Shown here: positions 4,101 through 29,915 of the stretch, in pieces
Layout: each line of letters starts with the position of its first letter
Position numbering within the stretch: the first letter of the stretch is position 1
From: a virus
Virus record (IMG/VR): IMGVR_UViG_3300023179_000356
Span: 1 to 30,491 of that record
Strand: one strand, 5' to 3'
Length of the DNA: 30,491 nt
The notes under the pieces: generated by a model
What the model was told of the DNA's origin: nothing
Database searches by the model: none
Seen by the model: the letters and a program-made list of their open reading frames with translations, nothing else
Program-made: the position numbers and the translations under genes

Positions 4101-5422
4101 GCAATAGTTCAGTAACATTTACTTTTGATTTAACTGATAACACTAGTAGTGGGGCACCTAGAACTATCTATACTTCAGTAGAAGGTAGTGCAAATGTAAC
4201 TGCTGCTGATTTTGTTGGTAGTTTAGCTCATTCTCACACTAGCGCTGATGGTACTGTAAGTAGAACTAAATCAATAACTATTGCAGCAGATCTTACTACA
4301 GAAGGTTCAGAAACATTTAGAATAAATTTCTATTCTGCGACTGCATGGAATACCGAACCAAAAGGAGCTCCATACTATCAAACAGGTTTATATACTATTA
4401 ATGATACTAGTGTTCCAGCAGCTCCAACATATAGTGTTACTCCAAGTACAACAACAGTAAATGAAGGTAGTGCAGTTACATTTAATGTAACAACAACTAA
4501 CGTTGCTAATAGCACTACATTATATTGGACTAATGCTGGTACAACAGTGGCGGCTGATTTTCAAGAAAATGTCAATAGTGGAAGTTTTACAATAACCAGT
4601 AACGCAGGTTCAGTTACATTGACGTTGTCTGCTGATTCAACAACAGAAGGTGGCGAAACTATTGATTTTAAAGTAAGAACAGATAGCACCAGCGGAACTA
4701 TTGTAGCAACAGCTACAACAGTAAGCGTATCTGATACTAGTACTACACCAGTAGCAGCTATTAAATTAACTAGTATTGGTTTAAGTCCAAATCCTGCTAA
4801 ATCATTTCAGAATTATACTATAACAGTTTATCAAAATACAACTAGTACTAGCGCTAATGCTCTAGCATTTACAATTGATCAAAGAACACCCAATGTTTTT
4901 AAGGATACTTGGTATCAAGGAGGACTTATAAGTATAGCAGCAGGACAAACTAGTGGTAGTTTTAGTGGTACTATTGCTGGAGGTACTATGCGACATAACG
5001 CACTTTTTACAGCAACTAGTGCTCTTGGCGAACTTAATACTGTTACTGCATGGGGAATAGTAGGTGGTGCTAATAGTAATGGTGTAACATTAATAGCATT
5101 TGATGTTGGTGCTACTAATAATGCTACAGAAAATACTAATAATACTGTTATATTTTTACGTCAAGGTCAAGTTATAGAATTTGGTACATGTAATGCAGGA
5201 AGCTTAACAGGAACAAGTATAACTTCTCCTAATAAAGATACATATTTACGAATTGTTAAAATAGGTGCTGGTACTACAGTTGCTGAAAATGATGATTATA
5301 CTGGTTATGGTACGGCAAGTTATATTAGTTGGCAAGTTACAGAAGATGGAGATTATCTGTTAAGAATAGGCGGATATTTAACTTCTTATGCAGCAGGTGT
5401 AGCAGCATATTATTTTGCCTAG
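1115..5422 (+). CDS. Giant multidomain adhesin (CBM-like, Ig-like, Calx-beta)
   Basis: A 1435-residue, Thr/Ser/Asn-rich virion protein. Residues about 1-180 form a jelly-roll carbohydrate-binding-like domain (motifs FTLSCYIKG, SFTYT, VQIRLDGP, WFDGLQLE). A Gly/Ser linker near 535 leads to an Ig-like domain. Calx-beta-like domains lie at about 650-755, 985-1105 and 1104-1210, each with an E-G/E-N-S near the start, a T-E-G-x-E core and an I-x-D-T-S end; the first and third are close copies. A bacterial Ig-like domain lies near 885-980. The last 110 residues resemble a pre-peptidase C-terminal (PPC-like) domain. These domains usually bind glycans or form extended rods, so a receptor-binding or decoration fibre is likely. 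It is the last gene before a strong terminator. No enzymatic motif was seen. Confidence 0.75.
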   Translation: MAYGIKAWSTYSNNLFPSPTNIYAWLGTASTNNCTLSADTSTAGAISGSIPLKMSITGGDPYAACYNAKQWTLDIAEIGDTFTLSCYIKGSQAGMGTCQLFIFGADDSGGVFSSPDYSAGAVSITTSWTRLSFTYTMTSAATKGVQIRLDGPDSGPAGTSVWFDGLQLERNSSATAFTSTPANPVLINNMIGGRVFIELLELAPVPGTIGDIPVYNSASITYTNIPGAQYLKYYTLQAGPYSVTTSTNAYNQAVITFTRRYAFQLPAFGSNVTVLAIFATRTTDPSYGLMVTNSNGDRLVSNNYPVPVFRGKIVFNSAPDYTIGLVRYHEKTISYGDVNSDKLIMYTIPESTDVWFTGDSFIGAGSSPYIVQTSYVTPSAGAAYSLAEGYVFQLNNISQSSDNYGLRVWDSSATQKLTFDSGLQHVNIAGIQESPLISYNDNEQSITNNSLYGPYSALVIPQFQQEIVSGIPNTVSSTVSSYRGVFRRQNSTIYYKIVAIETGFEDAYYNYTSTNGSQYDNTIFIVNTQLLGGNSSGGSGSTNNLTLTISPGAGSETCTYSSSYSTSCTTTKIYNVTTSGGDGTAITYNWTIIENSGNFTLTTASNLTYATLSQSGSSGTYVCILRCTATQSGIQQIKDYPVQHTHSTAAATYSITPNVTSINEGQSVTFTVTTTNVPNGTVLYWTLNNVAGVDFTPSQNQGTITIGSGNTFTLTTFADQLTEGNEAFTISLRTDGYTGTVVATSAQVTIADTSTAGTNWTLRLKNGSDTTITSLNGGTSQILEFIYTDPAVGVAPPLPTYSFTSSNVNLTIANATGTMSGTLDTEQGSPSYNKYVDLYKEVIVTAANISSGNQSVTINAYSPNGTTLRNTINITINDISAPTVTLTPANNSINTGATTTVTVTTSKNTTNLVSGDISVSAGSISSFSGSGSSYSFTYTAPATAATVTISIAAGAFTDSNGNSNSAGSTTITVLASYTNPVVSNVTVSPTTIDENSNSSVTFTFDLTDNTSSGAPRTIYTSVEGSANVTAADFVGSLAHSHTSADGTVSRTKSITIAADLTTEGSETFRINFYSATAWNTEPKGAPYYQTGLYTINDTSVPAAPTYSVTPSTTTVNEGSAVTFNVTTTNVANSTTLYWTNAGTTVAADFQENVNSGSFTITSNAGSVTLTLSADSTTEGGETIDFKVRTDSTSGTIVATATTVSVSDTSTTPVAAIKLTSIGLSPNPAKSFQNYTITVYQNTTSTSANALAFTIDQRTPNVFKDTWYQGGLISIAAGQTSGSFSGTIAGGTMRHNALFTATSALGELNTVTAWGIVGGANSNGVTLIAFDVGATNNATENTNNTVIFLRQGQVIEFGTCNAGSLTGTSITSPNKDTYLRIVKIGAGTTVAENDDYTGYGTASYISWQVTEDGDYLLRIGGYLTSYAAGVAAYYFA

Positions 5423-11448: not shown

Positions 11449-11705
11449 TGGCTGGTGGAATTTATGCAGGATACAATGCTACTACTGGACATGATTATGC
11501 AGACAAAGCTTTCTATGGCTTTCGCATGGATGCTCCAAATGGTCAGCTATATTTTGATTTTGATAATGGTGTAGATGGTACTACAGTATATCTACCTGAC
11601 GAATATGCAACAAGTGCACAAGACTATTTAATATATTTTTGGTCAAGCGACACTATAAAATTTAGTGTTACAAGCAATGGCCGATTATTAATGGAGTACA
11701 AGTAA
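11448..11705 (+). CDS. Small structural protein of unknown function
   Basis: An 85-residue protein linked to both neighbours by one-base TAATG overlaps, at 11448 and 11705. It is rich in aromatic residues (YAGYNATTGHDYADKAFYGF, then LIYFWSSD) and acidic residues (DFDNGVDG), with no Cys and no membrane segment. The close coupling to the preceding beta-sandwich protein and to the large adhesin suggests a minor virion component or a fibre accessory protein. I do not recognise the family. Confidence 0.6.
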   Translation: MAGGIYAGYNATTGHDYADKAFYGFRMDAPNGQLYFDFDNGVDGTTVYLPDEYATSAQDYLIYFWSSDTIKFSVTSNGRLLMEYK

Positions 11706-14700
11706 TGGCTCAAATTTTAGATTTAGGTAAGATTAGATTTCAGTTTAAAGGCACTTGGAGCTCTACTACTGAATATCAATTTAATGATGTAGTGTTTTAT
11801 AAAGGTAATGGCTATGTATATATTAGCACAGCCAAAACTACTGGTACCCTAACTAGTAACACCCAATTCTGGGGATTGCTAGCTAGTGGACTATTCTGGG
11901 AAGGAGCTTATAGTTCTGCTACAGAATATGGACGTGGTAGTACTGTACTGTACAATGGCAGTATATATCAATATATAAATAGCGCTCCTAGTACAGGTAA
12001 TGTACCAACAAATACAACTTACTGGAATATTTTATTACTACAAAATACTGCTAGTGCTAATGTTTATTATGTTGCATCACATGGAGCTGATAGTGCTGGT
12101 CAAGGTAATAGTTTAAGTACTCCCTATTTAACCTTAAAATATGCCTGTGCCAATGTACCTACTGGTAGCACTATTTTTGTTAAAAGTGGTACTTATAATG
12201 AGCAATTACCAATTACAGTTCCTAGTAATGTAGCTATTGTAGGCGATAATCAACGTACAGTTATTATTCAACCTAAAAGTGGTAATAGTGATGATGGAAC
12301 AACGCCCAACGCTCAGGCTACTATGTTTTATATGTCAGATGGATCTATTTTAAACAAAATGACATTTAAAGGCATGACTGGATGGGTTACAGGAACAACT
12401 GCTCAAGATATTACTACTAGTACTATTAAAGGTGTTGTAGCTAGACTTAATCCTAATATCACTGTTACTACTAAATCTCCTTATATATTGGAATGTACTG
12501 CAATCGGTAGTGGTTGTATAGGTGCACTTGTAGATGGTAGCGTGCATGCTAGTGGCTATAAGTCTATGATATTTCATGGATACACAGTTATTAGCGATAA
12601 TGGTGTGGGTTATTGGGTTAAAGACGGTGCTAAAGCAGAAATAGTTAGCTGTTTTACTTATTATTGCTATTTTGGTTACGCTTGTACAGGCGGTGGACAT
12701 ATACGAGCTTTAAATGGCAATAATAGTTATGGAACTTATGGTGCTTATAGTAGAGGATTTGATGGTAGTGAAACTGCTATAACGGCTCAAGTACTAGGTA
12801 GTCAACTAAATTTCTTATATAGTGGTGGTAATATTAGTGCTGGTGATACCTGCACAAGTAATAGCGGAGCAACTGGTATAGTTACAAATGTACAATACAG
12901 TGCTAATAAAGTTTATTTGCGTAATACAACTGGTACATTTACAGTAGGCAATACTTTAACATTTACTAGTGGAGGTACTGGTACAGTAACAACAGGAGCT
13001 TTAGAAGGCCAAAAAGGTTTTGTACTAGTATTAAATACATTAACTGCTGCTCCAAAACCCGGCCAAAGTCTTCAACTAGGTGACGATAGTAATGCTTATG
13101 TAATTCAAAGCTATACTGGAACATATACAGATTCAAATAGTATTATAGTTGTAGTACTTGCACAAGAAAAAACAAATAGTAGTCCAGCTACAACTGTAGT
13201 AACCTTACGTTCAAAATACTCACAAATTAGACTAACTGGACATGATTTTTTAAATATTGGTACAGGTGGTATAACTACTACAAATTATCCTGGCACACCA
13301 ACACAAAGTCCTAGTCAAGGAAATGAGGCAAAACAAATATTTCCAGGAAGAATATTTTATGTTAGTACGGATCAAGACGGTAATTTTAGAGTAGGAGATT
13401 ATTTTAAAATTGATCAAGGTACTGGTAAAGCAACACTAAATGCAAGTGCTTTTGATTTAGCAGGTTTAAGTAGCTTAAGACTAGGTAGTATAGGTGCACA
13501 ATTAGGCGAATCTATCAATGAATTTAGCAGTGATGGTACTATGAGTGGTAATAGCAATTTAGCTGTTCCTACTGAAGCTGCTGTAATAACTTATGTAGGA
13601 ATTAAAACAAACTCTGTAGCTGGACCTAGTATTATATACCATCAAACTTCTCTTACTAAGACTGTTCAATATGATGTTTTTTCTGCTGCTGTTGCAGGAA
13701 CTCCTAATTATAGCTTAATAGGAACTGTACCTAGCGGGGTTACAATTAATGGCAGCACAGGCTTGTTAACTATTGGAAGTGGTACTAGTACTGGTACATA
13801 TAGTGCATTTAGTGTTCAAGCAGCATTTACTACTGGTGAGACATTAAAAAAGAGTATTACTCTATATGTAAATGCTGCTGTACCAGTATTTAGCACAGCT
13901 AATATAACAACAGGTATACCAACTAATACAGCATTTAGTTCAACAGCTACACAAGCAACTGCAGCAACTGGTACAGTAGTACATACAATTACTGAAGGTG
14001 CTTTACCTACTTGGGCAACTCTTGCATCAAATGGTACGCTATCCGGAACTACTCCTAGTACAGGATCTGGAACTTATATTGGTCCCTATAGTTTTACAGT
14101 AACTGCTACTAATGGTATTTATACAGCTACAAGAAGTTATACATGGTTAGTTTACTTAGGCCTAATTCAAGGACAGAATGCATACACAAGTCCAGGAACT
14201 TATAGTTGGACTGCTCCTAGTGGTGTTACTAGTGTTAGTGTTGTTGCCGTAGGCGGTGGTGGTGCTGGTCAAGATGGTTGGGCTAATCCTGCAGGTGCTG
14301 GTGGCGGTTTAGGTTGGAAAAATAATATTTCAGTAAATCCTGGACAGAGTTATACAGTAGTTGTTGGTAGTGGTGGAGTAAGCTCTAATGGCAATAATGA
14401 TTCACTAATTGGTGGTAATAGTTATTTTAACTCACTTACTACAGTAGCTGGCTATGGTGGTACTAACGCTAATAGAGGAGTTGGTGATCGTGGTCCAAAT
14501 AGTAATGGTTATGGTGGTGGTTATGTAGGTGATGGTGGTGGTGCAGGTGGCAACGCTAGTAACTGGACTTCTGCAGGTGGCGCTGGCGGTTATACAGCTC
14601 GTGGATATAATCAACAAGAGACCTGGAATGCTAGTTTAGATGGTGGAGGTGGTGGCGCATACTATAGCAGTACTTATGGAACTGGTGCTGGTGGTGGCGT

Positions 14701-15034
14701 AGGTATTTTGGGTAAAACAGGATATCCAAGCCCAGGTAACCCATTCTATAATCCATTTCAGGGCTATAACAATAGTCCAAGTACTGGTAGCGGTGGCAGT
14801 GGTGCTCATGGTGGTAGCAATGGTGGCTATGGCGAAAATCCATTTAGTAGTACTGCTCAAAGTAGTACTAATATTCCAGGAGGTAATTATGGAGGTGGTG
14901 GTGGTGGCCCAGGAAGTGGTTGGCCTAGTGCTAGTGGAGAGGGTGGTAGTGGAGCAGTTAGAATTATGTGGGGTAGCAATCGTAGTTATCCTAATACTAA
15001 TGTTGCTGATGTCTCACCAAGTGGCCCAAGCTAG
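11705..15034 (+). CDS. Large tail adhesin: beta-helix, Ig-like, glycine-rich tip
   Basis: A 1109-residue fibre/adhesin. Residues 5-110 contain two copies of a W-x(n)-Y-x-x-x-D/S-x-V-x-Y/F carbohydrate-binding-like repeat (FKGTWSSTTEYQFNDVVFYK and WEGAYSSATEYGRGSTVLYN). From about 120 a right-handed beta-helix of the DUF1565/pectate-lyase-like type begins (YYVASHGADSAGQGNSLSTP, TIFVKSGTYNE), as in glycan-degrading or glycan-binding tailspikes. Residues about 500-640 match a segment shared by marine phage fibres (IFYVSTDQDGNFRVGDYFKI, SSLRLGSIG). Two putative Ig-like domains lie at about 655-815. The last 280 residues are a glycine-rich domain beginning SPGTYSWTAPSGVTSVSVVA, like the polyglycine tips of T4-type adhesins. 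A chaperone gene follows directly. No catalytic residues can be assigned safely. Confidence 0.82.
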   Translation: MAQILDLGKIRFQFKGTWSSTTEYQFNDVVFYKGNGYVYISTAKTTGTLTSNTQFWGLLASGLFWEGAYSSATEYGRGSTVLYNGSIYQYINSAPSTGNVPTNTTYWNILLLQNTASANVYYVASHGADSAGQGNSLSTPYLTLKYACANVPTGSTIFVKSGTYNEQLPITVPSNVAIVGDNQRTVIIQPKSGNSDDGTTPNAQATMFYMSDGSILNKMTFKGMTGWVTGTTAQDITTSTIKGVVARLNPNITVTTKSPYILECTAIGSGCIGALVDGSVHASGYKSMIFHGYTVISDNGVGYWVKDGAKAEIVSCFTYYCYFGYACTGGGHIRALNGNNSYGTYGAYSRGFDGSETAITAQVLGSQLNFLYSGGNISAGDTCTSNSGATGIVTNVQYSANKVYLRNTTGTFTVGNTLTFTSGGTGTVTTGALEGQKGFVLVLNTLTAAPKPGQSLQLGDDSNAYVIQSYTGTYTDSNSIIVVVLAQEKTNSSPATTVVTLRSKYSQIRLTGHDFLNIGTGGITTTNYPGTPTQSPSQGNEAKQIFPGRIFYVSTDQDGNFRVGDYFKIDQGTGKATLNASAFDLAGLSSLRLGSIGAQLGESINEFSSDGTMSGNSNLAVPTEAAVITYVGIKTNSVAGPSIIYHQTSLTKTVQYDVFSAAVAGTPNYSLIGTVPSGVTINGSTGLLTIGSGTSTGTYSAFSVQAAFTTGETLKKSITLYVNAAVPVFSTANITTGIPTNTAFSSTATQATAATGTVVHTITEGALPTWATLASNGTLSGTTPSTGSGTYIGPYSFTVTATNGIYTATRSYTWLVYLGLIQGQNAYTSPGTYSWTAPSGVTSVSVVAVGGGGAGQDGWANPAGAGGGLGWKNNISVNPGQSYTVVVGSGGVSSNGNNDSLIGGNSYFNSLTTVAGYGGTNANRGVGDRGPNSNGYGGGYVGDGGGAGGNASNWTSAGGAGGYTARGYNQQETWNASLDGGGGGAYYSSTYGTGAGGGVGILGKTGYPSPGNPFYNPFQGYNNSPSTGSGGSGAHGGSNGGYGENPFSSTAQSSTNIPGGNYGGGGGGPGSGWPSASGEGGSGAVRIMWGSNRSYPNTNVADVSPSGPS

Positions 15035-15046
15035 GAGAATAATTAA

Positions 15047-15496
15047 ATGTTATATATAAAACTTGATAATAACGGTAACCCAATAAATCATCCACTAACT
15101 GGAGATAACTTAAAGTATGTTTTAGAAGAATCTATTTTAACTGAAGATGTATTAAAAAAATATGGTTATGCTAAATTTGAGTTTACACCACTTCCAGCAA
15201 ATGCTGTTAGCCAAGCATTGCCAGAATATTTTATTGATATAGACGGAATTGTTCGCAATAGAATTACAATTCGCGAATTTACTCACGAAGAATTAATAGA
15301 TAAGTTTATCAGATCACGTAGAAGTTATTTGCTAGTTGAATCTGATTGGACTCAAACTATAGATAGCCCACTTTCTGCTGAAAAAAAGGCTGAATGGGCA
15401 GCATATAGACAAGCTTTAAGAGATTTACCTAATTTATACTTAAATACACAGATTCAACAACAAAGCGATATTGAATGGCCAACCAAACCAAGCTGA
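15047..15496 (+). CDS. Tail fibre assembly chaperone (Phage_tail_APC type)
   Basis: A 149-residue protein. The C-terminal half has the signature of tail-assembly chaperones: RSYLLVESDWTQTIDSPLSA, then EWAAYRQALRDLP and a terminal WPTKPS. The N-terminal half is a small beta domain (LYIKLDNNGNPINHPLTGDN). Such proteins fold or attach the distal fibre encoded just upstream, here the glycine-rich adhesin that ends 12 bases before. The ribosome site AGGAGAA precedes the ATG. The end overlaps the start of the first 2OG oxygenase gene by 22 bases, so the non-structural cassette that follows is probably on the same transcript. Confidence 0.82.
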   Translation: MLYIKLDNNGNPINHPLTGDNLKYVLEESILTEDVLKKYGYAKFEFTPLPANAVSQALPEYFIDIDGIVRNRITIREFTHEELIDKFIRSRRSYLLVESDWTQTIDSPLSAEKKAEWAAYRQALRDLPNLYLNTQIQQQSDIEWPTKPS

Positions 15497-16137
15497 CAAA
15501 TCAATTTCTACAAAATATTTTTCAAACACCACTATTAGTTGGTTATAGTGATAGTAAACATATACAAGAAAAAATATGTACTCTTGCTTATAAGTTTATA
15601 GAAACAGCCTCCAATGCGGGGCTTGTTTCTGAAGGCTGGAATTATGCTAAACGTTCATCTTCTAAAGAAGATTTTAATAACTATGGTGTTACATCTTTTA
15701 ATTCTAATTCTTTACTTGATTTACCAGAGTGGAAAGAAGTAATTGATTTTTTATATGATTTTGCAAATACTATGATATCCACTGTAAATGACAGTAATAA
15801 AAATATTAAATTTGTAAATAGTTGGGTTACAATATATCCGCCTAAAACTTATGTGCCAGAGCATATACACTCTAATTCTCTTTTAAGTGGCGTATTTTAT
15901 GCTAAAGTTTCTAATAACTGTGGTAATTTAATATTTAAGGATCCCGCAGCTGTTGCTAAAACAATGTGTATAGCAGATATAAATTATTTTCCAACTGTTA
16001 AAACAATCTATACGCATATAGTTGAACAAGGACAAATGATTATTTTTCCTTCTTGGCTACCACATTTAACAGAACAAAATCATTCTGATAGTGATCGTAT
16101 AATGGTTAGCTTTAATATTGACTTAGATAAAAATTAA
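15475..16137 (+). CDS. 2OG-Fe(II) oxygenase, TIGR02466-like
   Basis: A 220-residue protein resembling the putative 2OG-Fe(II) oxygenase family TIGR02466/PF13759. The core VNSWVTIYPPKTYVPEHIHS carries the expected metal-binding motif in H-x-H form (His130, His132), followed by SLLSGVFYAKV. The distal part FPSWLPHLTEQNHSDSDRIM supplies His197 and the 2-oxoglutarate-binding Arg208, followed by VSFNI. Enzymes of this fold couple decarboxylation of 2-oxoglutarate to oxidation of a target; the target here is unknown. The gene begins inside the chaperone gene (22-base overlap) and is followed 11 bases later by a second oxygenase of a different subfamily. Modification of a virion protein or of a host molecule are both possible. 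Confidence 0.8.
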   Translation: MANQTKLTNQFLQNIFQTPLLVGYSDSKHIQEKICTLAYKFIETASNAGLVSEGWNYAKRSSSKEDFNNYGVTSFNSNSLLDLPEWKEVIDFLYDFANTMISTVNDSNKNIKFVNSWVTIYPPKTYVPEHIHSNSLLSGVFYAKVSNNCGNLIFKDPAAVAKTMCIADINYFPTVKTIYTHIVEQGQMIIFPSWLPHLTEQNHSDSDRIMVSFNIDLDKN

Positions 16138-16148
16138 AAATATATTAC

Positions 16149-16688
16149 ATGAAACCAATTTATAAGTATTATCATAATTTTTTAACTGAACAAGAGTGCA
16201 ATTATTTGATCGAAAATAATACGATCAAGTTAGAATCAGCAAAGATTTCAAATAATAAAAAACCAAGTATGTTAATAAGAAAAAGTAAAGTTAGTTGGAT
16301 CGCCAAAGATGTTGATAGCAAATCTGATGAAATTATACAAAAAATAGTTGACTTAATGTTTTGGGAAAGTAAGGAAACACATGATATAAAGCTAACATCA
16401 GTAGAACCAGTACAATTTGCTAAATATGGGCTACTAGATCACTATGCAAAACACATAGACATAGGAACAAATGATAGTAATTATAGAATACTAAGTGCTG
16501 TTGTAGAATTAACTAATCCAAATAATTATTTAGGCGGTGGGTTAAATATTTATATTGCTAATCAAGTACATAAAATGCCATTTAAACAAGGAACTGTAGT
16601 TTTATTTCCTTCTATATTAACACATAAAGCAAAACCTGTATTCTATGGTACAAGGTATTCTCTTAGTTTATGGGGATGTAAAACTTAA
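16149..16688 (+). CDS. 2OG-Fe(II) oxygenase, prolyl-4-hydroxylase-like
   Basis: A 179-residue oxygenase of the P4H/PKHD type, smaller than and clearly different from its neighbour. The metal triad is complete: H102-x-D104 in YAKHIDIG and distal His159 in PSILTHKAKPV, with Arg169 (GTRYSLSLW) for 2-oxoglutarate binding. NPNNYLGGGLNIYI matches the usual Y-x-G-G-x-L strand. Proteins of this type occur in many marine phages, but substrates are unknown. The gene ends one base before the heme oxygenase start, so the four-gene cassette is probably co-translated. Both 2OG and heme oxygenases use O2 and reductant, but I see no direct biochemical link. Confidence 0.87.
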   Translation: MKPIYKYYHNFLTEQECNYLIENNTIKLESAKISNNKKPSMLIRKSKVSWIAKDVDSKSDEIIQKIVDLMFWESKETHDIKLTSVEPVQFAKYGLLDHYAKHIDIGTNDSNYRILSAVVELTNPNNYLGGGLNIYIANQVHKMPFKQGTVVLFPSILTHKAKPVFYGTRYSLSLWGCKT

Positions 16689-16689
16689 T

Positions 16690-17211
16690 ATGCTTACTCT
16701 AAAAGAGCTAACTAGTGAAAACCATAAAATTGCTGAAAATCATGTTTTTACCAAATTATTGCTTAGTGGTAAAATCACCAAACAAATATATGCAACCTAT
16801 TTAGCTAATCAATTACAGCAATATAGTATACTAGAATCTAAAGCGGTAAGTTTATTAAATAAACTACCTGGTATATACCGCACTCATTTAATTTTACAGG
16901 ATTTAGTAGAGTTAAATACATCAGCTATTGTTTTTCAAACTACTGTTGAATATTTTAATCGTATTATAAAACTAAATAGTAATGAGTTATGGTCGCATAT
17001 ATACACTAAACATATGGGTGATTTATATGGTGGCCAAATAATTAAAAGTAAAGTGCCAGGAAGTGGCAAAATGTATCAGTTTAATAATAGATTAGATCTA
17101 ATTAACAATTTACGTTCAAATTTAGATTTAAACATGGCTACTGAAGCTAATTGGTGTTTTAAATCAACAATAGATCTTTTTGATAATATAGCTAATGAGT
17201 ATAATCTTTAA
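16690..17211 (+). CDS. ho1: Heme oxygenase (biliverdin-forming), compact phage type
   Basis: A 173-residue heme oxygenase, which opens heme to biliverdin, CO and Fe(II) using O2 and electrons. The proximal heme ligand is His12 in LTSENHKIAEN, matching the T-x-x-x-H-x-x-A-E motif. The distal-helix signature is HMGDLYGGQ (Gly110, Asp111, Gly114, Gly115). The helical pattern between them fits the all-alpha HO fold. It is shorter than typical cyanobacterial HO1 (about 230 residues) because the C-terminal tail is reduced. The ATG at 16690, just after the oxygenase stop, is preferred over an upstream in-frame ATG at 16645 that would add 15 residues unrelated to HOs. The product biliverdin is the substrate of the next gene, which overlaps by 17 bases. 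Confidence 0.9.
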   Translation: MLTLKELTSENHKIAENHVFTKLLLSGKITKQIYATYLANQLQQYSILESKAVSLLNKLPGIYRTHLILQDLVELNTSAIVFQTTVEYFNRIIKLNSNELWSHIYTKHMGDLYGGQIIKSKVPGSGKMYQFNNRLDLINNLRSNLDLNMATEANWCFKSTIDLFDNIANEYNL

Positions 17212-17854
17212 TAGACTAAAACAACACGAAAAAGCCTTAGAAGAAATACTATCCTCTAAGGCTTTTTCAATACCTGACAAAAACATCTATACCTGGACTA
17301 ATAAAGTTTTTAGTAATAGTTATATAAGACGTGCCCACTTAGATTGTATAGATGCTATAACCACAAAAAAATTATACATGATGCATCTATGTGTATTTCC
17401 AAACACTAAACTAAATGCACCTATATATGGTTTTGATATTATTGCTGGCCCAAATAAGGTAACCGGAGCATTTTTAGATATTAGTCCTATAGACCCTAAA
17501 CATCCTATGTGTAATTGGTATAAAGATCTAGTAAAAGATCTTGTTTGGTCAAAGCCTAGACAGTTGCCTGAATGGGCACAAAAAATATTTAGTAGTAATA
17601 TGATTGCTGCTGGAAATATTAGTAGTGAAGCAGAATTAAGTGTTATATTAGAGCTAAGTATAACAATGTTAAATAAATATTTAGATTTAGTAGAATTGAG
17701 TACAAGTAGTGTGGATTATACTAATAAACAAAACTACTACTGCAAGCAACAAAAATGTAATCCACATACGCCAAAAGTTTTAAAAAGCATTGGTTTTAGT
17801 GAGCAATTAATCAATGACTTTATCAATAATTGTTTATTTCCAGAAGTGGTTTAA
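17195..17854 (+). CDS. pcyX: Ferredoxin-dependent bilin reductase, PcyX-type
   Basis: A 219-residue member of the FDBR family, closest in pattern to PcyA. The core reads RRAHLDCIDA, MMHLCVFPN, then YGFDIIAGPNKVTGAFLDIS. Against cyanobacterial PcyA the catalytic His88 and Asp105 correspond to His64 and Asp81, whereas PcyA Glu76 is Asp50. That Glu-to-Asp change is the reported hallmark of PcyX, a phage-only clade that makes phycoerythrobilin from biliverdin by four-electron reduction. The C-terminal YYCKQQKCNPHTPKVL also fits the PcyA/PcyX end. Electrons would come from ferredoxin of host or phage; none is encoded here. It overlaps the heme oxygenase gene and ends with tandem TAA stops. PcyX is preferred over PebS and PcyA; product identity is inferred. 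Confidence 0.87.
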   Translation: MSIIFNRLKQHEKALEEILSSKAFSIPDKNIYTWTNKVFSNSYIRRAHLDCIDAITTKKLYMMHLCVFPNTKLNAPIYGFDIIAGPNKVTGAFLDISPIDPKHPMCNWYKDLVKDLVWSKPRQLPEWAQKIFSSNMIAAGNISSEAELSVILELSITMLNKYLDLVELSTSSVDYTNKQNYYCKQQKCNPHTPKVLKSIGFSEQLINDFINNCLFPEVV

Positions 17855-17908: not shown

Positions 17909-19621
17909 ATGACTAGAGCAACAGTATTAGCAAGATTAGTATCTACTGGCAAACAGCTAGAAGATGGCATAATGACTGCTAGCGATATTGGTACCATAGG
18001 CGGATTTGATACTACCCAAGTGTTAAATATTAGCAATACCACTGATTCTACGGGCCCAACTACTGGAGCCATAGTAGTTGCTGGTGGCATAGGCATAGCT
18101 AAAAAATTATATGTGCATCAAGGATTTGATATAGGTAGTGCAACGGGCGGAACCGGTAGCAGTATTATAACACTTAGAAGTTCATTAACATATCCTAGTG
18201 GACTAACGGCTTTAGAAACTAAAAATTTAAGTAGTGATACCATTTTAGGTTTAACATTAACTAATAGTACGCACAGTGGTAAAATATATCAAGTAGCCAA
18301 TGAGTTAATAATTAGAGATAATACTAATGAAACACTACGATTAGGTTCAGCAACTGGATTAAAGATTCCTTTTAGTATAGCCTCAACATCCACAACTACA
18401 GGATCATTAATAGTTAGTGGTGGAACAGGTATAGCAGGCAATACATATATTGGCGGTATTTTAAATGCGACCAATACTACTGCTTCTACTTCTTCAACTA
18501 CAGGTGGCTTAGTTATTAGTGGAGGATTAGGTATAGCTGGTTCTATTAATTCAGCAGGAAATATTACTGCCGTATCTCTAGAAAATACACCAATAGGAAG
18601 TACAACAGCAAATACTGGTAGATTTACCAGTGTTAATATTATAAATGCAACTGGTTCAACTAGTAAAACTAGTGGTGCTTTAATTGTTGGCGGTGGTGTT
18701 GGTATAAATGAAAATCTATATATTGGTGGCATTTTAAATGTAGAGGGTGCTGTAACAATAACTGGAAATTTAACGGTTAATGGTACAACTACTACCGTTA
18801 ATACTAGTACATTAAATATTGCAGATAATATAATTACATTAAATAGCGATGTTCTATCAGGATCACCAACTCAAGATGCTGGTATAGAAGTATTACGTGG
18901 TACAAGCGCTACGGTTGGTATAAAATGGAATGAAACAAGTGATGCATGGGAAATGTCTGATGCAACTGGAGCATATTCTAAAATAGCTACCAATGCTTTT
19001 AGCAAAATAACTGTTAATGGACAAAGCGATGTAGATGCTGATACTAACGCAGATACTTTAACACTAGTTGGTAGTGGTATTACTATTACTACTAATGCTA
19101 CCACAGATACAATAACTTTTACTAGTACTGGTATTACTAGTGTTAGTGGTACAACTAATCAAGTTACAGCTAGCACTACCAGTGGTGCTGTAACACTAAG
19201 TTTGCCCCAAAGCATTAACACAGCAGCCAGCGTTCAGTTTGGATCGCTAGGTGTAGGCACTGCAGCTAGCGGTACTGCGGGTGAACTTAGATGTACTGGC
19301 GATATTACAGCTTATTATTCCGCTTCTGATATAAGAGTTAAAGAAAATGTTAATAATGTATCAGGAGTATTAGATAAAATTAATAATTTAAACTTATATA
19401 GTTTTAATTATATAAATAATCCTAATAAGAAAATGTTAGGATTAATGGCACAAGAATTAATTAATCAGTTTCCAGAGCTGGTTTATGAAACAAAGCCTTT
19501 TGATGATTCTGTTAAACTAGATAAAATATATGCCGTAAATTATTCATTAGTATCTGCAGTTTTGGTACAGGCTATAAAAGAGTTAAATAAAAAATTGGAT
19601 AATTTAATAGGAAATATATAA
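17909..19621 (+). CDS. Tail fibre with S74 self-cleaving chaperone domain
   Basis: A 570-residue fibre. Residues about 55-270 hold four to five copies of a repeat of the form T-T-G-A-L-V-V-x-G-G-x-G-I-A-x-x-L-Y-I-G-G, also present at the end of the 960-residue fibre. After a beta-rich segment (NLTVNGTTTTVNTSTLNIAD), the C-terminus is an intramolecular chaperone of the Peptidase_S74/endosialidase type: SDIRVKENV, then LNLYSFNY, LGLMAQELINQFPELV and YSLVSAVLVQAIKELN. By homology the chain should be cut just before Ser473, with Lys478 as partner (the Ser/Lys spacing of five matches the known dyad), releasing about 98 residues after trimer folding. The stop shares a base with the next start (TAATG). 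Confidence 0.88.
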   Translation: MTRATVLARLVSTGKQLEDGIMTASDIGTIGGFDTTQVLNISNTTDSTGPTTGAIVVAGGIGIAKKLYVHQGFDIGSATGGTGSSIITLRSSLTYPSGLTALETKNLSSDTILGLTLTNSTHSGKIYQVANELIIRDNTNETLRLGSATGLKIPFSIASTSTTTGSLIVSGGTGIAGNTYIGGILNATNTTASTSSTTGGLVISGGLGIAGSINSAGNITAVSLENTPIGSTTANTGRFTSVNIINATGSTSKTSGALIVGGGVGINENLYIGGILNVEGAVTITGNLTVNGTTTTVNTSTLNIADNIITLNSDVLSGSPTQDAGIEVLRGTSATVGIKWNETSDAWEMSDATGAYSKIATNAFSKITVNGQSDVDADTNADTLTLVGSGITITTNATTDTITFTSTGITSVSGTTNQVTASTTSGAVTLSLPQSINTAASVQFGSLGVGTAASGTAGELRCTGDITAYYSASDIRVKENVNNVSGVLDKINNLNLYSFNYINNPNKKMLGLMAQELINQFPELVYETKPFDDSVKLDKIYAVNYSLVSAVLVQAIKELNKKLDNLIGNI

Positions 19622-21231
19622 TGTCATATTATTCTGTATTCAATTTGAGTAATGGTGCTGTAAGTAATACTTCTATATCTACACTAGCCAACGAGCTTAC
19701 AGGATCTTCTACCAATCAAATTAATTTTGGTGGAAGATACATAGGACCATTACTAGCTGGAGGTGCGCCAGCACTAACTGGAGATACTTCAATAACTAAT
19801 ATTAGTATTAGTAAATTAGCAGGTAAAGGTACAGATTATTGGATACCTACTAATAATAGTAATACATATACTGCATTAGCACCTAACGATAATTTATCTT
19901 ATGCATCAGGTAGTCATAGTGTGGGTTATGTTACTAATGATACTAGTAAATGGTATCATTCTTATTCTTATAGAGTATTTGCACCTGGAAAAACTTCTGT
20001 TGACTATATTGGATGGAATCAAGATCCTGCCAATATATTATGGGATGATCCTTATGTTACTACTGCTGGTTCAGGAATAATTAGTAGATATGATGCTGAT
20101 TATTGGGTAAACAATACAAATATATCCAAATTGCCACTTAAAATATATCAAATACCACCAAATTGTACTACAGTAACAATACAAGCATGGGGTGGTGGCG
20201 GTGGTAGTGGTGGTAGTTGGTATGATTCCTATGGTGGTTATGGTGGTGCTGGTGGTTATGCTACTACTACTTTAACAGTTAATTCAACAGTTAACCCTGC
20301 TACTGGTAGAACGGTTAGAGTTGGAGATTTATTATACTGTTGGATAGGTTTAGGTGGGGGTGGAGCTACAGATCTATGGACTGCTGGTGTAGGAGGAATG
20401 GGAACTGCAGTATGGTTATTAAGTGGACCTAGCTATGGAGCTGTAGGTTATCCTAAAACTACTGGTGGTAAAAGTTTATATAATAGTGCATGGTCTGAGT
20501 GGCAAGGTGCTACCGTTGGTGGAGGTGGTTTTTTAACTGGTCTTACACAAAAATATTTTAGAGAAGTTTTTGGGGGGGAAGGCTACTTCAATCAAACTAA
20601 TCTTGCTAAAGATATTTGTGTATTAATAGCTGGCGGAGGTGGGGGTGGTGGATCTGTAAACGCGAGTGGAGGAATTTCTGGAGCTGGCGGTGGTAGCGGT
20701 GGTAGTGATGGAGCAAGTGCTCCACTTATTTCGGCTAGCGGTACTGGAGCCACTACTACTGCTCATGGTTTAGGTTCGGTTACAGCATCTGGCTCAGTAA
20801 CTAGTGTAGAACAAGCAGGTAGATGGTCTAATACAAATCAAAATACTATTAGAAATACCAGTGATGTTCCAGAAGCAACTATAATTGGATTATTTCCAGA
20901 AATAAATATTGGACATGATTCATTAGCAAGTGCCGGTCTTTCAAGCTATGCTAATTCAGGTGGTGGTGGTGGCGGAGCATTTCGAGGAAATATTGGGCCA
21001 AGAATCACGTCGGATCAAAGTAGTAATAATCGTGGACGTGGTGGTGGTGGCGGAGCAAATAAAGTATATCTTGGATCAGGAAGTACTAGTAGTAGTGGAG
21101 TATCTAATAGTCCTCCTAATAGTGATGGTACTCATGGAATTGGTGGTACACCAAGGTATGCTGTAAGAGACTCATATTATTGGCGAGGCGGACCTGGAAG
21201 AGCAGGAAAAGTAGTAATGCAATTTAATTAG
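19621..21231 (+). CDS. Glycine-rich tail adhesin
   Basis: A 536-residue protein in which roughly the last 360 residues are glycine-rich. They contain polyglycine blocks (WGGGGGSGGSW, AGGGGGGGSV, SGGGGGGAFRG, RGRGGGGGANK) between aromatic strands, and end GRAGKVVMQFN. This resembles the polyglycine type II sandwich tips of T4-like adhesins and the C-terminus of the 1109-residue adhesin upstream. The N-terminal NGAVSNTSISTLANELTGSS is a short attachment motif seen in fibre-linked adhesins. A run of seven G at 20572-20578 is the longest I noticed in this AT-rich window and lies early in the glycine-rich part. A chaperone-like gene follows. The likely role is receptor recognition. Confidence 0.78.
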   Translation: MSYYSVFNLSNGAVSNTSISTLANELTGSSTNQINFGGRYIGPLLAGGAPALTGDTSITNISISKLAGKGTDYWIPTNNSNTYTALAPNDNLSYASGSHSVGYVTNDTSKWYHSYSYRVFAPGKTSVDYIGWNQDPANILWDDPYVTTAGSGIISRYDADYWVNNTNISKLPLKIYQIPPNCTTVTIQAWGGGGGSGGSWYDSYGGYGGAGGYATTTLTVNSTVNPATGRTVRVGDLLYCWIGLGGGGATDLWTAGVGGMGTAVWLLSGPSYGAVGYPKTTGGKSLYNSAWSEWQGATVGGGGFLTGLTQKYFREVFGGEGYFNQTNLAKDICVLIAGGGGGGGSVNASGGISGAGGGSGGSDGASAPLISASGTGATTTAHGLGSVTASGSVTSVEQAGRWSNTNQNTIRNTSDVPEATIIGLFPEINIGHDSLASAGLSSYANSGGGGGGAFRGNIGPRITSDQSSNNRGRGGGGGANKVYLGSGSTSSSGVSNSPPNSDGTHGIGGTPRYAVRDSYYWRGGPGRAGKVVMQFN

Positions 21232-21240
21232 AGTTAAAAT

Positions 21241-21846
21241 ATGACAACATCAACAATACCTAATACTGGTGGTCCTAGTTCTGTACCATATCAACCAGCA
21301 CGATGGGTTTATATAAACCCTGATAATACTCTAACAGAAATATCGTATTTAAATAATTTTATTTTTAATAATATAGAGTATAATACACAAGAGCTATTTT
21401 TAAAGTCCGAACAGAAAATAAAAGATTTAGGCTTTTACAAAATAATTGTAAATTATCCTATTATTAATTCTTTTCAACATGTAGTTACTAATCCAGATTT
21501 AGCTGTTGCTACTATAAATCACGGTGAAAAAAATATTTATGTAAAACTTGAAGTTAATAGTCATACTTGGTTACATATAAAAGATGTAATAAATAGTGAA
21601 ATAAGTAAACAGCTTGATAAGTTTGCACAGCAGCGTGGATACGACAATGTAGTATCTTGTGTATCTTATGCTAACTCTACTAATATTACTTATAAAGAAG
21701 AAGCATTATACTGTATGCAATTACGCGATCAAGTATGGGCAATTATAACAGATTGGATAAATAAAGTAGATAACTACGAAATAGAAATGCCTGGTTCAAT
21801 GGAACAAATATATAAAAAGTTACCTGAATTTGTTTGGCCAACATAA
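21241..21846 (+). CDS. Tail fibre chaperone-like protein (DUF4376-like C-terminus)
   Basis: A 201-residue protein. The N-terminal half is a beta domain (QPARWVYINPDNTLTEISYL). The C-terminal half contains KQLDKFAQQRGYDNVVSCVS, EEALYCMQLRDQVWAIITDW and the final LPEFVWPT. An Arg/Asp-containing helix followed by W-x-x-I and a C-terminal L-P-x-x-x-W-P is the usual ending of DUF4376-type tail fibre chaperones. It follows the glycine-rich adhesin by nine bases, mirroring the adhesin-chaperone pair at 11705-15496. It is probably dedicated to that adhesin. Its stop forms a TAATG junction with the inner spanin. Confidence 0.7.
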   Translation: MTTSTIPNTGGPSSVPYQPARWVYINPDNTLTEISYLNNFIFNNIEYNTQELFLKSEQKIKDLGFYKIIVNYPIINSFQHVVTNPDLAVATINHGEKNIYVKLEVNSHTWLHIKDVINSEISKQLDKFAQQRGYDNVVSCVSYANSTNITYKEEALYCMQLRDQVWAIITDWINKVDNYEIEMPGSMEQIYKKLPEFVWPT

Positions 21847-22253
21847 TGTTTATATTAAATTTTATTCCTAGTTGGTTTTTTCCAACCTTAGCTATACTAG
21901 CCTTGTTAGTATTTTTAATAAGCAGATACATAAAACTAGCACAAGCTCAATTAATACACTATGCTAGTATTGTAGTATTTTCACTAGCAATATTTATGAC
22001 TGGTGCAAATTGGAATAATGATCACTGGTTGGCTAAAGTTAAAGAGGTAGAAGCCAAATTAGCGGTAGTTGAAGCTAAAAGCGCTAAAGAAAATACTAAG
22101 ATAGTAGAAAAAGTAGTTACTAAACGTGAAATAGTACGTGTGCAGGGCAATGAAATTGTAAAATATATAGATCGAGAAAAACTGGTAATAGATGAAAATT
22201 GTAAAATACCAGAATCAGTTGTAGAAGCGCATAACAAGGCTGTAAAACAATGA
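21846..22253 (+). CDS. Inner-membrane spanin (Rz-like) with two TM segments
   Basis: A 135-residue protein. Two hydrophobic segments (about residues 7-28 and 39-57) are joined by a positively charged loop (SRYIKLAQ). They are followed by a long charged helical region (KVKEVEAKLAVVEAKSAKEN, IVEKVVTKREIVRV) expected to form a periplasmic coiled coil. It overlaps a short lipoprotein by ATGA and precedes the endolysin, the order expected for i-spanin, o-spanin and lysin. The TAATG start at 21846 is chosen over an in-frame ATG at 21834 inside the previous gene. Most Rz proteins have one TM. With two, and with the positive loop inside, both ends would be periplasmic, which still allows spanin function. 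Confidence 0.7.
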   Translation: MFILNFIPSWFFPTLAILALLVFLISRYIKLAQAQLIHYASIVVFSLAIFMTGANWNNDHWLAKVKEVEAKLAVVEAKSAKENTKIVEKVVTKREIVRVQGNEIVKYIDREKLVIDENCKIPESVVEAHNKAVKQ

Positions 22254-22510
22254 AATATGTTATTACATTAGCACTAATACTAGGGGGCTGTGCTACGACG
22301 GTTCCAGTAACACAACGCTTTCCAGACGCACCTAAACCGCTACTAGAGCATTGTAAGCCGCTTAAAGAAGCACCACAAGCTGTACAGCTAAGTGAGCTTA
22401 CTAAAATTATAGTAGATAATTATATGGAATATCATATTTGCAGTGGCAATAATAGTGCATGGATAGAGTGGTATACAACACAGCAACGTATATTTAACAA
22501 GGAGAAGTAG
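22250..22510 (+). CDS. Outer-membrane spanin lipoprotein (Rz1-like)
   Basis: An 86-residue lipoprotein. The signal peptide ends in a lipobox, LALILGGC, with Cys14 as the predicted lipidated residue. The mature part has Pro-containing FPDAPKPLLEHCKPLKEAPQ and a C-terminal segment NYMEYHICSGNNSAWIEWYT. This N-Y-x-x-Y-H-x-C...A-W-x-x-W-Y pattern is typical of Rz1-like o-spanins in phages with separate spanin genes. It would sit in the outer membrane, pair with the inner spanin across the periplasm and fuse the membranes at lysis. The start overlaps the i-spanin stop (ATGA), and the stop overlaps the GTG start of the endolysin. Confidence 0.8.
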   Translation: MKYVITLALILGGCATTVPVTQRFPDAPKPLLEHCKPLKEAPQAVQLSELTKIIVDNYMEYHICSGNNSAWIEWYTTQQRIFNKEK

Positions 22511-23121
22511 TGGAACTAACAGAACAACAATTACAGCAAATTATTCCTAAAAACAAATATGTTAGCTACTGGTATACTGCACTACAACAATTATTACCAC
22601 AATATGAAATTAACACACCAGATCGTATAGCAGCTTTCTTAGCACAATGTGCTCATGAATCTGGTGGTTTTGTTTTTATTAAAGAGAATTTGAACTATAA
22701 ATGGGCAAGCCTGCGTAAAGTTTTTCCTAAGTATTTTCCCACAGATGCATTGGCACAGCAATATGAGAAACAACCTGAAAAAATTGCTAACAGAGTTTAC
22801 GCTAATCGTATGGGTAATGGTCCTGAAGAATCAGGAGATGGTTGGCGATTTTGTGGGCGTGGATTAATACAAGTAACTGGTAGAGAGAATTATAGTTGGT
22901 TTGCTGCTAGTTTACAGATTAGTCCGGAAGAGGCTAGTGAATATATGGAAACCTTTGAAGGTGCTGCACAGTCGGCATGCTGGTTTTGGGAATCAAACAA
23001 TTTAAATCAGTGGGCTGATAAGCAGGATATAGTTACACTTACAAAACGCATTAATGGTGGAACAATCGGATTAGAGGATAGAAAAAAGCATTACGAACAT
23101 TGCTTGCATATATTAAGCTAA
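22510..23121 (+). CDS. Endolysin, GH19 chitinase-like muramidase
   Basis: A 203-residue glycoside hydrolase family 19 endolysin that cuts the peptidoglycan glycan backbone. The first catalytic Glu is Glu50 in AQCAHESGGF, the second is probably Glu59 in KENLNY, and substrate-cleft motif CGRGLIQVTGRENY follows. The later SACWFWESNNLNQWAD and TKRINGGTIGLEDRKKHY complete the family pattern. No signal peptide or SAR domain is present, so release probably needs a holin. It starts at GTG (22510), which shares its G with the preceding TAG; a strong AAGGAG ribosome site at 22499-22504 supports this start. It is the third gene of the lysis block. Confidence 0.92.
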   Translation: MELTEQQLQQIIPKNKYVSYWYTALQQLLPQYEINTPDRIAAFLAQCAHESGGFVFIKENLNYKWASLRKVFPKYFPTDALAQQYEKQPEKIANRVYANRMGNGPEESGDGWRFCGRGLIQVTGRENYSWFAASLQISPEEASEYMETFEGAAQSACWFWESNNLNQWADKQDIVTLTKRINGGTIGLEDRKKHYEHCLHILS

Positions 23122-27747: not shown

Positions 27748-27954
27748 TTTTACTACTTCTAAAGTTGGAGCAGAATCTTTATCAGATTCTTCATCTTTAT
27801 TTAGTTCTTCTAATTGTTCATTAGCTTGAATCTGTATCTTTCTAGTTAATGGATTACAAATTTTAGCCGGTAATTCTTGAAGAGACACTAATATACTATT
27901 AATCTCGTTTACAGTTAATCTTAGTGTTAAAATTTCTTTATCTGTATCAATCAT
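27745..27954 (-). CDS. Small conserved RNR-linked phage protein
   Basis: A 69-residue protein starting at 27954, where its ATG overlaps the RNR stop as ATGA; an in-frame ATG 27 bases further upstream lies inside the RNR gene and is less likely. The first 50 residues (EILTLRLTVNEINSILVSLQ, ELPAKICNPLTRKIQIQA) follow an L-x-L-x-V-x-E-I-N-x-I-L...L-P...L-x-x-K-I-Q pattern that I recognise from small proteins in many phages, often called hypothetical. The C-terminus is acidic and probably disordered (LNKDEESDKDS). It is the last gene before the bidirectional terminator. Function unknown. Confidence 0.75.
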   Translation of the reverse strand: MIDTDKEILTLRLTVNEINSILVSLQELPAKICNPLTRKIQIQANEQLEELNKDEESDKDSAPTLEVVK

Positions 27955-29915
27955 TTTACGGGGCAAACTCCAGTAGCACATTCATCATCTAACAATTCGT
28001 CAAAACTGTTAGCACTTTCTATATCAATTGTTTTTAGATTGTAAATATAATCTTTATATGTTTTCTCGTCCACAACTTCTTGTGGCAGATATAAATAACC
28101 TAAATCTTGAGCAGTTTTAGTAGGATCAGTTCTATAAATAAAACTTACACCTACATAGCAGTCCCAGTTATTTAGCAACCAATCTATAATTTCTGTAACC
28201 TCACTAGGATCATAACTAATAGTTACACTAGTATTTTGTTGTGTCCAGCTAGTTTGTAATAATTTATATCTTTCTAGCTGATAAACAGCACTTTCAAGAT
28301 TGACTTCTTTATTACCATCTTTATGAAAAGGCACATCTTTCCACTCTACTGGAAAGGTTACTAAGACGCCAGTTGGATCTGTAGGATGATTAATTACCCT
28401 ATAACCAGCATCTCGAAGTATAGGAATCATTGGATCGTATGTACTAAATTGCACATTGTTAAAAATGTATTTACCTAGTGGTTTGTGTACACCTTCTGTA
28501 CAATCCATGATTTTGCTAAGCGTACCAGATGGCTTAATACAAGTAACATTTTTAGGTCTTGGTAAGCCTAATTCATCTGCCATTGAAATGGCACTTGATG
28601 TGGCTGTGCGCTTTAAATATTCATAGTCATAGCTAGTCATATCAGGACGCATTGCAATACCTGTTAAACCTACTCCACAGAGACGTAAGAAATAGTTGTT
28701 AAGGTGCCAAGCTTCTTGTAAGATCCCGTCTTTAAGATTAACACAGGTCTGACGATAATTTGCCCTGGCAGCCAATCTGATCGCATCGTGTAATCCTGCG
28801 GTGTCACCTTTAAACTTGGAGATATCCGTTTCCGTAAGGTTACAGAAGGCTTTGTTACCCAACAAGATTTCAACACAGGGATTTGCTCCTTTAAACCACG
28901 GAGCACGTCTAAGAGCTTCTTGTTCATTAATAAATCCTGGCTCACTGCCACCAGCCTCTAGCATAAGATTAAAAATCTCTTTTAGCTCTTGACGTGTTGG
29001 CTTTTCTTTAAATACTAAACTGTTATTTGATTGCTGACGATGTTCGCGATTATATAGCCAAAAATCTTTTTTAGCTATGGCAAATTCTTGCCATTCCGGC
29101 TGACCATAGTCAAAAAGAGCGATTTCAGCCGATCTACGACTAGATAATATCGTTCCAAGATGATTAATAATGTCAAGAATATCCATCCTAGTAAGAAGGC
29201 TGTCAGCCCTACCATTAAGTATGTTGGCAATTGCAACATAAGCTTTTGAGATAGCACTGTCACCACTGCTAATCCATCCATATCCTTTTAACCTTTCTCC
29301 AGCTGGTCTTAGTTGACTAAAATCAAGTACAAGAGTAGTAGCAGGATACTTGCCCGCAAGAAGCTTTCCAATAGACTTGGCCCACGCTTCTGCGCTGTCT
29401 CCAACCTGAATTGTCCAAGTTTTTGTTGTTGGATCCCAAGTTTCAACATTGTGTTCAAGTCCTCCTTTAGCAGTTCGTTGGCTCTTAACAACTTGAATAT
29501 TTTTAATTGGTTTTGAGAATCCATTTAGTGTGCCTACAATAGGTTTAAATCCAACTCCACAACCCTGTAATAATAACCATAAACAATCTACTACATCGTA
29601 TACTGTTTCTACTTGTGTAAAACTACAGTTAAATTGACTGGCTTCACGAGTTTGTGCCACTGTAGTACCACCTAGCCAAAGTGTTCGTCCGGCCATTAAT
29701 ACCTTGCGCTCTAGCATTAGCTTTTCTAGTTGATCTAGTTCTTCTACTTCATTGAAAAAGAGCTGACGTCCTACAGCTCGCTCCCATAACCAGTGTTGAT
29801 GATCTTTAACTCGTCTAACAGTTTGTTGCCAGTTTTCAAATTGTTTACCATCATCACTAGTAGGACGATTATAAGTTCGTCTAGTAATTACTTGTGCGCG
29901 TGTGCTTACTTGCAT
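27951..29915 (-). CDS. nrdJ: Class II (adenosylcobalamin-dependent) ribonucleoside-triphosphate reductase
   Basis: A 654-residue monomeric RTPR, which converts NTPs to dNTPs with a cobalamin-generated thiyl radical. Key residues are visible: Cys97 (SQFNCSFTQ) and Cys358 (KAFCNLTE) as the active-site disulfide pair, and radical-site Cys347 with Asn345 and Glu349 in GANPCVEIL. The 11-residue spacing of Cys347 to Cys358 equals that of the Lactobacillus enzyme. The C-terminal relay pair is Cys646/Cys651 in ECATGVCPVK. CIKPSGTLSKIMDC matches the phosphate-binding loop. It is somewhat shorter than the 739-residue Lactobacillus protein. GGAGAAATT precedes the ATG. No radical activator is needed, but the host must supply B12. 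It lies downstream of dut, eight bases apart. Confidence 0.94.
   Translation of the reverse strand: MQVSTRAQVITRRTYNRPTSDDGKQFENWQQTVRRVKDHQHWLWERAVGRQLFFNEVEELDQLEKLMLERKVLMAGRTLWLGGTTVAQTREASQFNCSFTQVETVYDVVDCLWLLLQGCGVGFKPIVGTLNGFSKPIKNIQVVKSQRTAKGGLEHNVETWDPTTKTWTIQVGDSAEAWAKSIGKLLAGKYPATTLVLDFSQLRPAGERLKGYGWISSGDSAISKAYVAIANILNGRADSLLTRMDILDIINHLGTILSSRRSAEIALFDYGQPEWQEFAIAKKDFWLYNREHRQQSNNSLVFKEKPTRQELKEIFNLMLEAGGSEPGFINEQEALRRAPWFKGANPCVEILLGNKAFCNLTETDISKFKGDTAGLHDAIRLAARANYRQTCVNLKDGILQEAWHLNNYFLRLCGVGLTGIAMRPDMTSYDYEYLKRTATSSAISMADELGLPRPKNVTCIKPSGTLSKIMDCTEGVHKPLGKYIFNNVQFSTYDPMIPILRDAGYRVINHPTDPTGVLVTFPVEWKDVPFHKDGNKEVNLESAVYQLERYKLLQTSWTQQNTSVTISYDPSEVTEIIDWLLNNWDCYVGVSFIYRTDPTKTAQDLGYLYLPQEVVDEKTYKDYIYNLKTIDIESANSFDELLDDECATGVCPVK

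Follow-up and report, generated by a model that had tools for sequence, protein, structure and literature searches.

The 30,491-nt stretch of viral DNA analysed here in full (IMG/VR record IMGVR_UViG_3300023179_000356, positions 1 to 30,491; hereafter the window) carries a haem oxygenase (HO) and a bilin reductase of the PcyX type. From the nature of the enzymes and their setting, it is most likely that a T5-like siphophage carries the pair as optional cargo in its fibre-lysis slot, a reading to which we assign a probability of about three in four. An earlier note on this DNA had proposed a HO-PcyX bilin cassette carried as cargo in a phage fibre locus, and both the gene identities and the setting have borne this out. 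The phage HO-PcyX cassette was already known from T4-like ocean phages, while its sharing by unrelated kinds of phage is new. That a pair with intact active-site residues and under purifying selection occurs in T5-like siphophage contigs and in contigs related to two other kinds of phage suggests a benefit for unrelated phages. HO would open host haem to biliverdin IXalpha, Fe2+ and CO, and PcyX, together with host ferredoxin, would then convert biliverdin to phycoerythrobilin (PEB), a pink pigment. The pair would have been exchanged among phage lineages and kept by purifying selection.

The bilin genes in the fibre-lysis slot

The genes from the tail-fibre chaperone to the S74 fibre all lie on the plus strand, as judged from the open reading frames of the window and their Pfam and PHROG profile matches (Table 1). 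The four non-structural genes described earlier between chaperone and fibre keep their coordinates and strand, with only the HO start amended. As listed, the HO reading frame begins at 16645; an ATG at 16690, 2 bases past the OG2 stop, is most likely the true start because homologues start there. The HO and PcyX reading frames overlap by 17 nt in the window, and the pair is probably translationally coupled. On the lysis side, the variable slot is bounded by the endolysin and the spanin-like genes. A tRNA scan of the window found none.

Table 1. Features of the fibre-lysis region, in window coordinates
Feature	Position	Strand	Matches and remarks
Large tail-fibre gene	11705..15034	+	Upstream of cassette; 7e-75 to Mosig putative tail fibre; 72% over 517 aa to G007 fibre
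Tail-fibre assembly chaperone	15047..15496	+	PF16778 1.5e-16; phrog_4912 6.7e-15
OG1, 2OG-Fe(II) oxygenase 1	15475..16137	+	PF13759 2.3e-20; phrog_81 7.8e-39
OG2, 2OG-Fe(II) oxygenase 2	16149..16688	+	PF13640 1.2e-12; phrog_61 1.1e-26
HO, haem oxygenase, 173 aa	16690..17211	+	PF01126 1.6e-16; start by alignment
PcyX-type ferredoxin-dependent bilin reductase (PEB synthase), 219 aa	17195..17854	+	PF05996 6.1e-22
Tail fibre with S74 endosialidase-type chaperone	17909..19621	+	PF13884 1.2e-12; downstream boundary of cassette
Glycine-rich fibre-like protein	19621..21231	+	No family match among Pfam and PHROG profiles; homologue 49% in L003 contig
Spanin-like genes	21834-22510		Weak Rz-like spanin match at 22250-22510
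Endolysin	22510..23121	+	phrog_181 1.3e-78; 70-97% conserved in relatives

This gene order is not unique to the window; uniqueness would have spoken against the earlier proposal. The L002 contig repeats the succession chaperone-OG1-OG2-HO-PcyX, and at the downstream junction the L003 contig has HO-PcyX followed by homologues of both the S74 fibre, at the same place, and the glycine-rich fibre-like gene. A misassembly or misjoin at either edge of the cassette was considered and rejected, and a chance or chimeric arrangement is ruled out because both junctions recur in these independent contigs.

The haem oxygenase has the hallmarks of the canonical HO-1/HmuO type, with a proximal histidine (His12, kept in 70 of 71 relatives) and a GDLYGGQ distal helix. 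Its AF2 model (pLDDT 95.5) has the all-helical HO fold and is matched by Foldseek to HmuO (1.5e-07) and to HO-1. By homology to the characterised vHemO, the enzyme is expected to cleave haem.

Sequence, fold and diagnostic residues likewise agree that the reductase is PcyX rather than PcyA, as the earlier note had it. The PF05996 score of 78.8 bits, against a cut-off of 31, identifies a ferredoxin-dependent bilin reductase (FDBR) domain, and the protein's match to PcyX 5owg (2.3e-52) is stronger than that to cyanobacterial PcyA (7.4e-14). Its AF2 model (pLDDT 92.3) shows the FDBR fold, with matches to PcyA and PcyX structures at ~1e-12. Asp50, His64 and Asp81 are the equivalents of PcyX Asp55, His88 and Asp105. 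Where PcyX has Asp55, which has been called PcyX-specific (PMC11480375), PcyA has Glu76, a residue absent from PcyX (PMC10151467). Among 52 distinct viral relatives, the PcyX-type aspartate is kept in 47, the window included, and the equivalents of His88 and Asp105 in all. Homology to characterised PcyX suggests that the window enzyme reduces biliverdin to PEB, presumably with electrons from host ferredoxin. Divergent pairs of HO and reductase, with Glu or Ser at the position of the PcyX aspartate, occur in L055, L062, L053, L068 and L071, and by their sequences are possibly PcyA-like, as in phage CB_2; in L071 a DnaK-like gene lies near the pair.

That the fibre-lysis interval is a cargo slot follows from its varying contents among T5-like relatives. 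An endolysin scan retrieved such relatives, the nearest to the window being L099-L124. HO-PcyX is present in six of them, two of which are contigs already counted, and absent in 16 that have at least 4 kb of upstream sequence. In slots that lack the pair, L102 and L111 hold only fibre and chaperone, L108/L110, L113 and L116 hold glycosyltransferases of families 2 or 25, and L117 holds a 2OG oxygenase. In L121, L123 and L124 a sugar-epimerase-like gene stands ahead of HO.

Linkage, spread and inheritance of the pair

The window PcyX, used as query against IMG/VR, returned 74 loci, which together with the isolate Pelagibacter phage Mosig EXVC030M and the window make 76; counts per locus take in near-identical contigs. 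HO lies upstream of PcyX on the same strand in all 74 loci with room for it, mostly overlapping the PcyX reading frame, and a single gene is interposed in L032/L033, L040 and L054/L058/L061. A HO-centred scan, a weak test of HO without PcyX, gave 10 loci, most of them on contigs already in the set. A genome-contig scan for bacterial PcyX, also a weak test with short window-specific peptides as query, returned only a Prochlorococcus MAG (29%). After dereplication, 33 loci have 5 kb or more of upstream sequence; in 20 of these, a gene homologous to the fibre or chaperone genes of the window lies no further than 5 kb upstream or 3 kb downstream. Loci without such a neighbour include the divergent cassettes whose aspartate position holds Glu or Ser.

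PcyX is under purifying selection, with dN/dS of 0.04-0.28 between relatives. The T5-like rows form one clade of the PcyX tree (SH-aLRT 99), nested in a larger one that also holds four T4-like rows (98), and a single T4-like clade is rejected (p-AU 0.012), which implies at least one PcyX transfer between T4-like and T5-like phages. Comparison of the window with L002 bears on the more recent history: many backbone proteins are 81-97% identical, whereas OG1, OG2, HO and PcyX are only 47-73% identical. A swap of the cassette by recombination between these two was considered and found no support, since its synonymous divergence, HO excepted, does not fall below or clearly exceed the backbone values (PcyX 0.68, backbone 0.53-1.18, HO higher). 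Because the synonymous divergence of PcyX resembles that of the backbone, the pair was probably inherited vertically in the T5-like lineage, with its proteins evolving faster than those of the backbone. Elsewhere, L030 (9463-10660) and L036 (9487-10660) have PcyX proteins that are 95% identical and HO proteins that are only 54% identical, from which it appears that HO and PcyX can recombine apart though always adjacent.

The carrier phage and related cassettes

The window, at 30 kb, is without genes for TerL, protease-capsid, major tail protein and tape measure and is tied to a T5-like lineage by backbone genes shared with sister contigs. Through these contigs it is probably to be placed in a distant lineage of siphophages related to the Demerecviridae (T5) rather than among T4-like phages. 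T5-type TerL, protease-capsid, major tail protein and tape measure are present in the sister contigs G007 and G031. In G007 (58 kb) the order of the major tail protein and tape measure matches that of Demerecviridae Vibrio phages such as Pogseptimavirus PG07. The likeness to these phages thus extends to TerL, protease/capsid and gene order, but the identities are only ~50% for TerL and ~36% for the fused protease-capsid, and the lineage, unlike PG07, carries HO-PcyX cargo. G031 (102 kb, locus L124) has TerL 78% and capsid 68% identical to those of G007, and carries on the same contig both HO-PcyX and the lysis, PhoH and ribonucleotide reductase backbone of the window. The lysis and other backbone genes of the window also recur in L002-L009, L011, L012 and L070, with no gp13 beside the cassette. 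On other backbones, HO-PcyX shares a contig with a KPP25-like capsid protein in G011 and with a Rhizobium-TM27-like portal in G008.

The window backbone itself appears mosaic, because its ribonucleotide reductase (27951-29915, minus strand), a class II enzyme of the cobalamin-dependent type, is podovirus-like, with its closest relative (69%) in the podovirus metagenome record MW202615, and so differs in affinity from the T5-like capsid genes. A podovirus placement based on this gene was dropped once TerL and capsid had been found in the T5-like sister contigs. The domain of the large upstream fibre is common to T4-like, T5-like and podovirus-like contigs. In addition, the fibres of G008 (38193-41105, locus L090) and G007 (32744-38830, locus L086) are 79% identical over 536 aa amid otherwise unrelated structural genes, a likeness that points to fibre exchange between phage types.

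Earlier work on the viral hemO-pcyX cassette is reportedly due to Ledermann and colleagues. The cassette, hemO-pcyX(-valaS), has been tied to T4-like pelagimyophages through gp13, and its purpose has been called enigmatic (PMC11480375). The isolate Mosig has, in order, a fibre gene, six 2OG-like genes, HO, PcyX and a neck protein. As in this pelagimyophage cassette, HO of the window is directly followed by PcyX near 2OG oxygenases and fibre genes. The window differs in its probable T5-like backbone and in having fibre and lysis genes rather than gp13 downstream, and neither valaS nor ferredoxin was found in its contig; the T4-like backbone marked by gp13 is thus not that of the window, and backbone is no measure of function. 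The PcyX proteins of the window and Mosig are ~42-45% identical. Since Mosig is an isolate with the same cassette in a similar neighbourhood, it makes the role of phage PEB testable. EBK42635 (PDB 5owg), the characterised phage PEB synthase PcyX, shares with the window protein its fold and an active site with Asp, His and Asp, but the window protein is distant from it within the family and 5owg groups with Mosig PcyX. The PebS and PcyA enzymes of cyanophages, also phage-borne, belong to the same superfamily on separate branches. A literature search covering papers outside subscription found none that treats pcyX together with a siphovirus.

What haem breakdown may serve

Late transcription of the cassette with the structural genes, as suggested earlier, fits its position, with fibre and lysis genes flanking it on both sides on one strand, but gains nothing from promoters: in the window, the T4-like late promoter TATAAATA was found 12 times against 10.3 expected, and sigma-70-like sites 62 times against 61.3, both at the level of chance. 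From position we infer late co-transcription.

The purpose of the pair is the least certain part of the analysis. Our first choice, held tentatively and at somewhat less than even odds, is a late breakdown of haem as a source of iron, in which PcyX draws the HO reaction onward by using up biliverdin. The possibility that the hemO-pcyX cassette has a role in iron supply has been discussed (PMC11480375), and 2OG-Fe(II) enzymes adjoin the cassette in the window. Against this purpose, HO would suffice to release iron and still PcyX is always retained, which the iron idea must explain by product removal. Nor does the cobalamin-dependent type of the window's ribonucleotide reductase add any demand for iron. 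Motifs of the HxH kind have been noted in phage tail proteins that bind iron. None was found in the fibres beginning at 11705, 17909 and 19621, which also counts against the iron purpose and leaves iron-loaded fibres on the cassette side without direct support.

The constant retention of PcyX, and of its characteristic aspartate across phage lineages, fits with PEB itself acting as chromophore or signal for a host or phage protein, for example a phytochrome-like sensor or a bilin-binding globin, and so altering host physiology while infection proceeds. Phytochrome or globin ligands have been suggested for the PcyA product of phage CB_2 (PMC11480375). This second choice, for which we would allow about one chance in four, has to contend with a product whose identity varies, because Glu or Ser stands in place of the aspartate in some cassettes and CB_2 makes PCB. 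In addition, neither GAF nor phycobilisome proteins were seen in 32 virus records, although most of these are fragments and the host might supply the receptor. A search of 31 metagenomic virus records, again mostly fragments, found no ferredoxin, phycobilisome, GAF or AlaS-type aminotransferase domain, an absence that weighs little because the contigs are fragments; Mosig has a ferredoxin.

As a third and less probable choice, the pair may detoxify haem that is freed late in infection or protect against redox damage, with the bilin as antioxidant or electron sink. HO and PcyX jointly consume haem, O2 and reducing power, and the position beside late genes would suit such a role, but nothing else in the locus hints at oxidative stress.

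The two 2OG oxygenases raise the question of whether HO and its neighbours form one functional unit, for example with iron from HO feeding fibre hydroxylation by the 2OG enzymes. The density of 2OG genes is higher near the pair (32 in 440 kb within 3 kb of HO-PcyX against 12 in 561 kb further away, near-identical contigs included), six 2OG-like genes precede HO in Mosig, and the gene between HO and PcyX in L032 and L040 is a 2OG gene. However, a 2OG gene was detected within 3 kb in 24 of 76 loci and none in the other 52, and the L117 slot holds one without HO or PcyX. OG1 and OG2 belong to different Pfam families, and the HxD...H motif of OG2 is intact. The earlier note had left the pairing open between function and shared cargo; the evidence favours the latter, and the 2OG genes are best seen as co-cargo of the fibre locus because they are optional whereas HO and PcyX are always together. 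A common functional unit is accordingly unlikely.

In Mosig, two genes at L076 8249-9531 (Mosig_00059 and Mosig_00058) are annotated as 'ferrochelatase' and 'DNA endonuclease V', names that are also those of phrog_3531, phrog_2297 and phrog_274. Both names look wrong because the proteins have 2OG-oxygenase-like HxD...H motifs.

PEB is a cyanobacterial antenna pigment, and upkeep of light harvesting in a cyanobacterial host was reportedly proposed earlier for cyanophage PebS and PcyA. PcyX can indeed pigment phycobilisomes when expressed in Synechococcus (PMC13197396). Nevertheless, Pelagibacter is the host of the nearest cassette-bearing isolate, the backbones are T5-like, KPP25-like and Rhizobium-TM27-like, and the window showed no photosynthesis gene. 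Given the Pelagibacter isolate and the other, unrelated backbones, an antenna role is improbable as a general purpose, and the spread over phage types argues against any purpose bound to a single type of host. Least credible of all is that the enzymes of the slot (glycosyltransferases, 2OG oxygenases and HO-PcyX) modify the virion or its interplay with the receptor, with PEB or haem iron in or on the fibres, which if true would amount to a pigmented or metal-loaded phage tail.

Far from the cassette, the window encodes at 1115-5422 a virion-like protein of 1435 aa with two HxH motifs, against 0.02 expected by shuffling.
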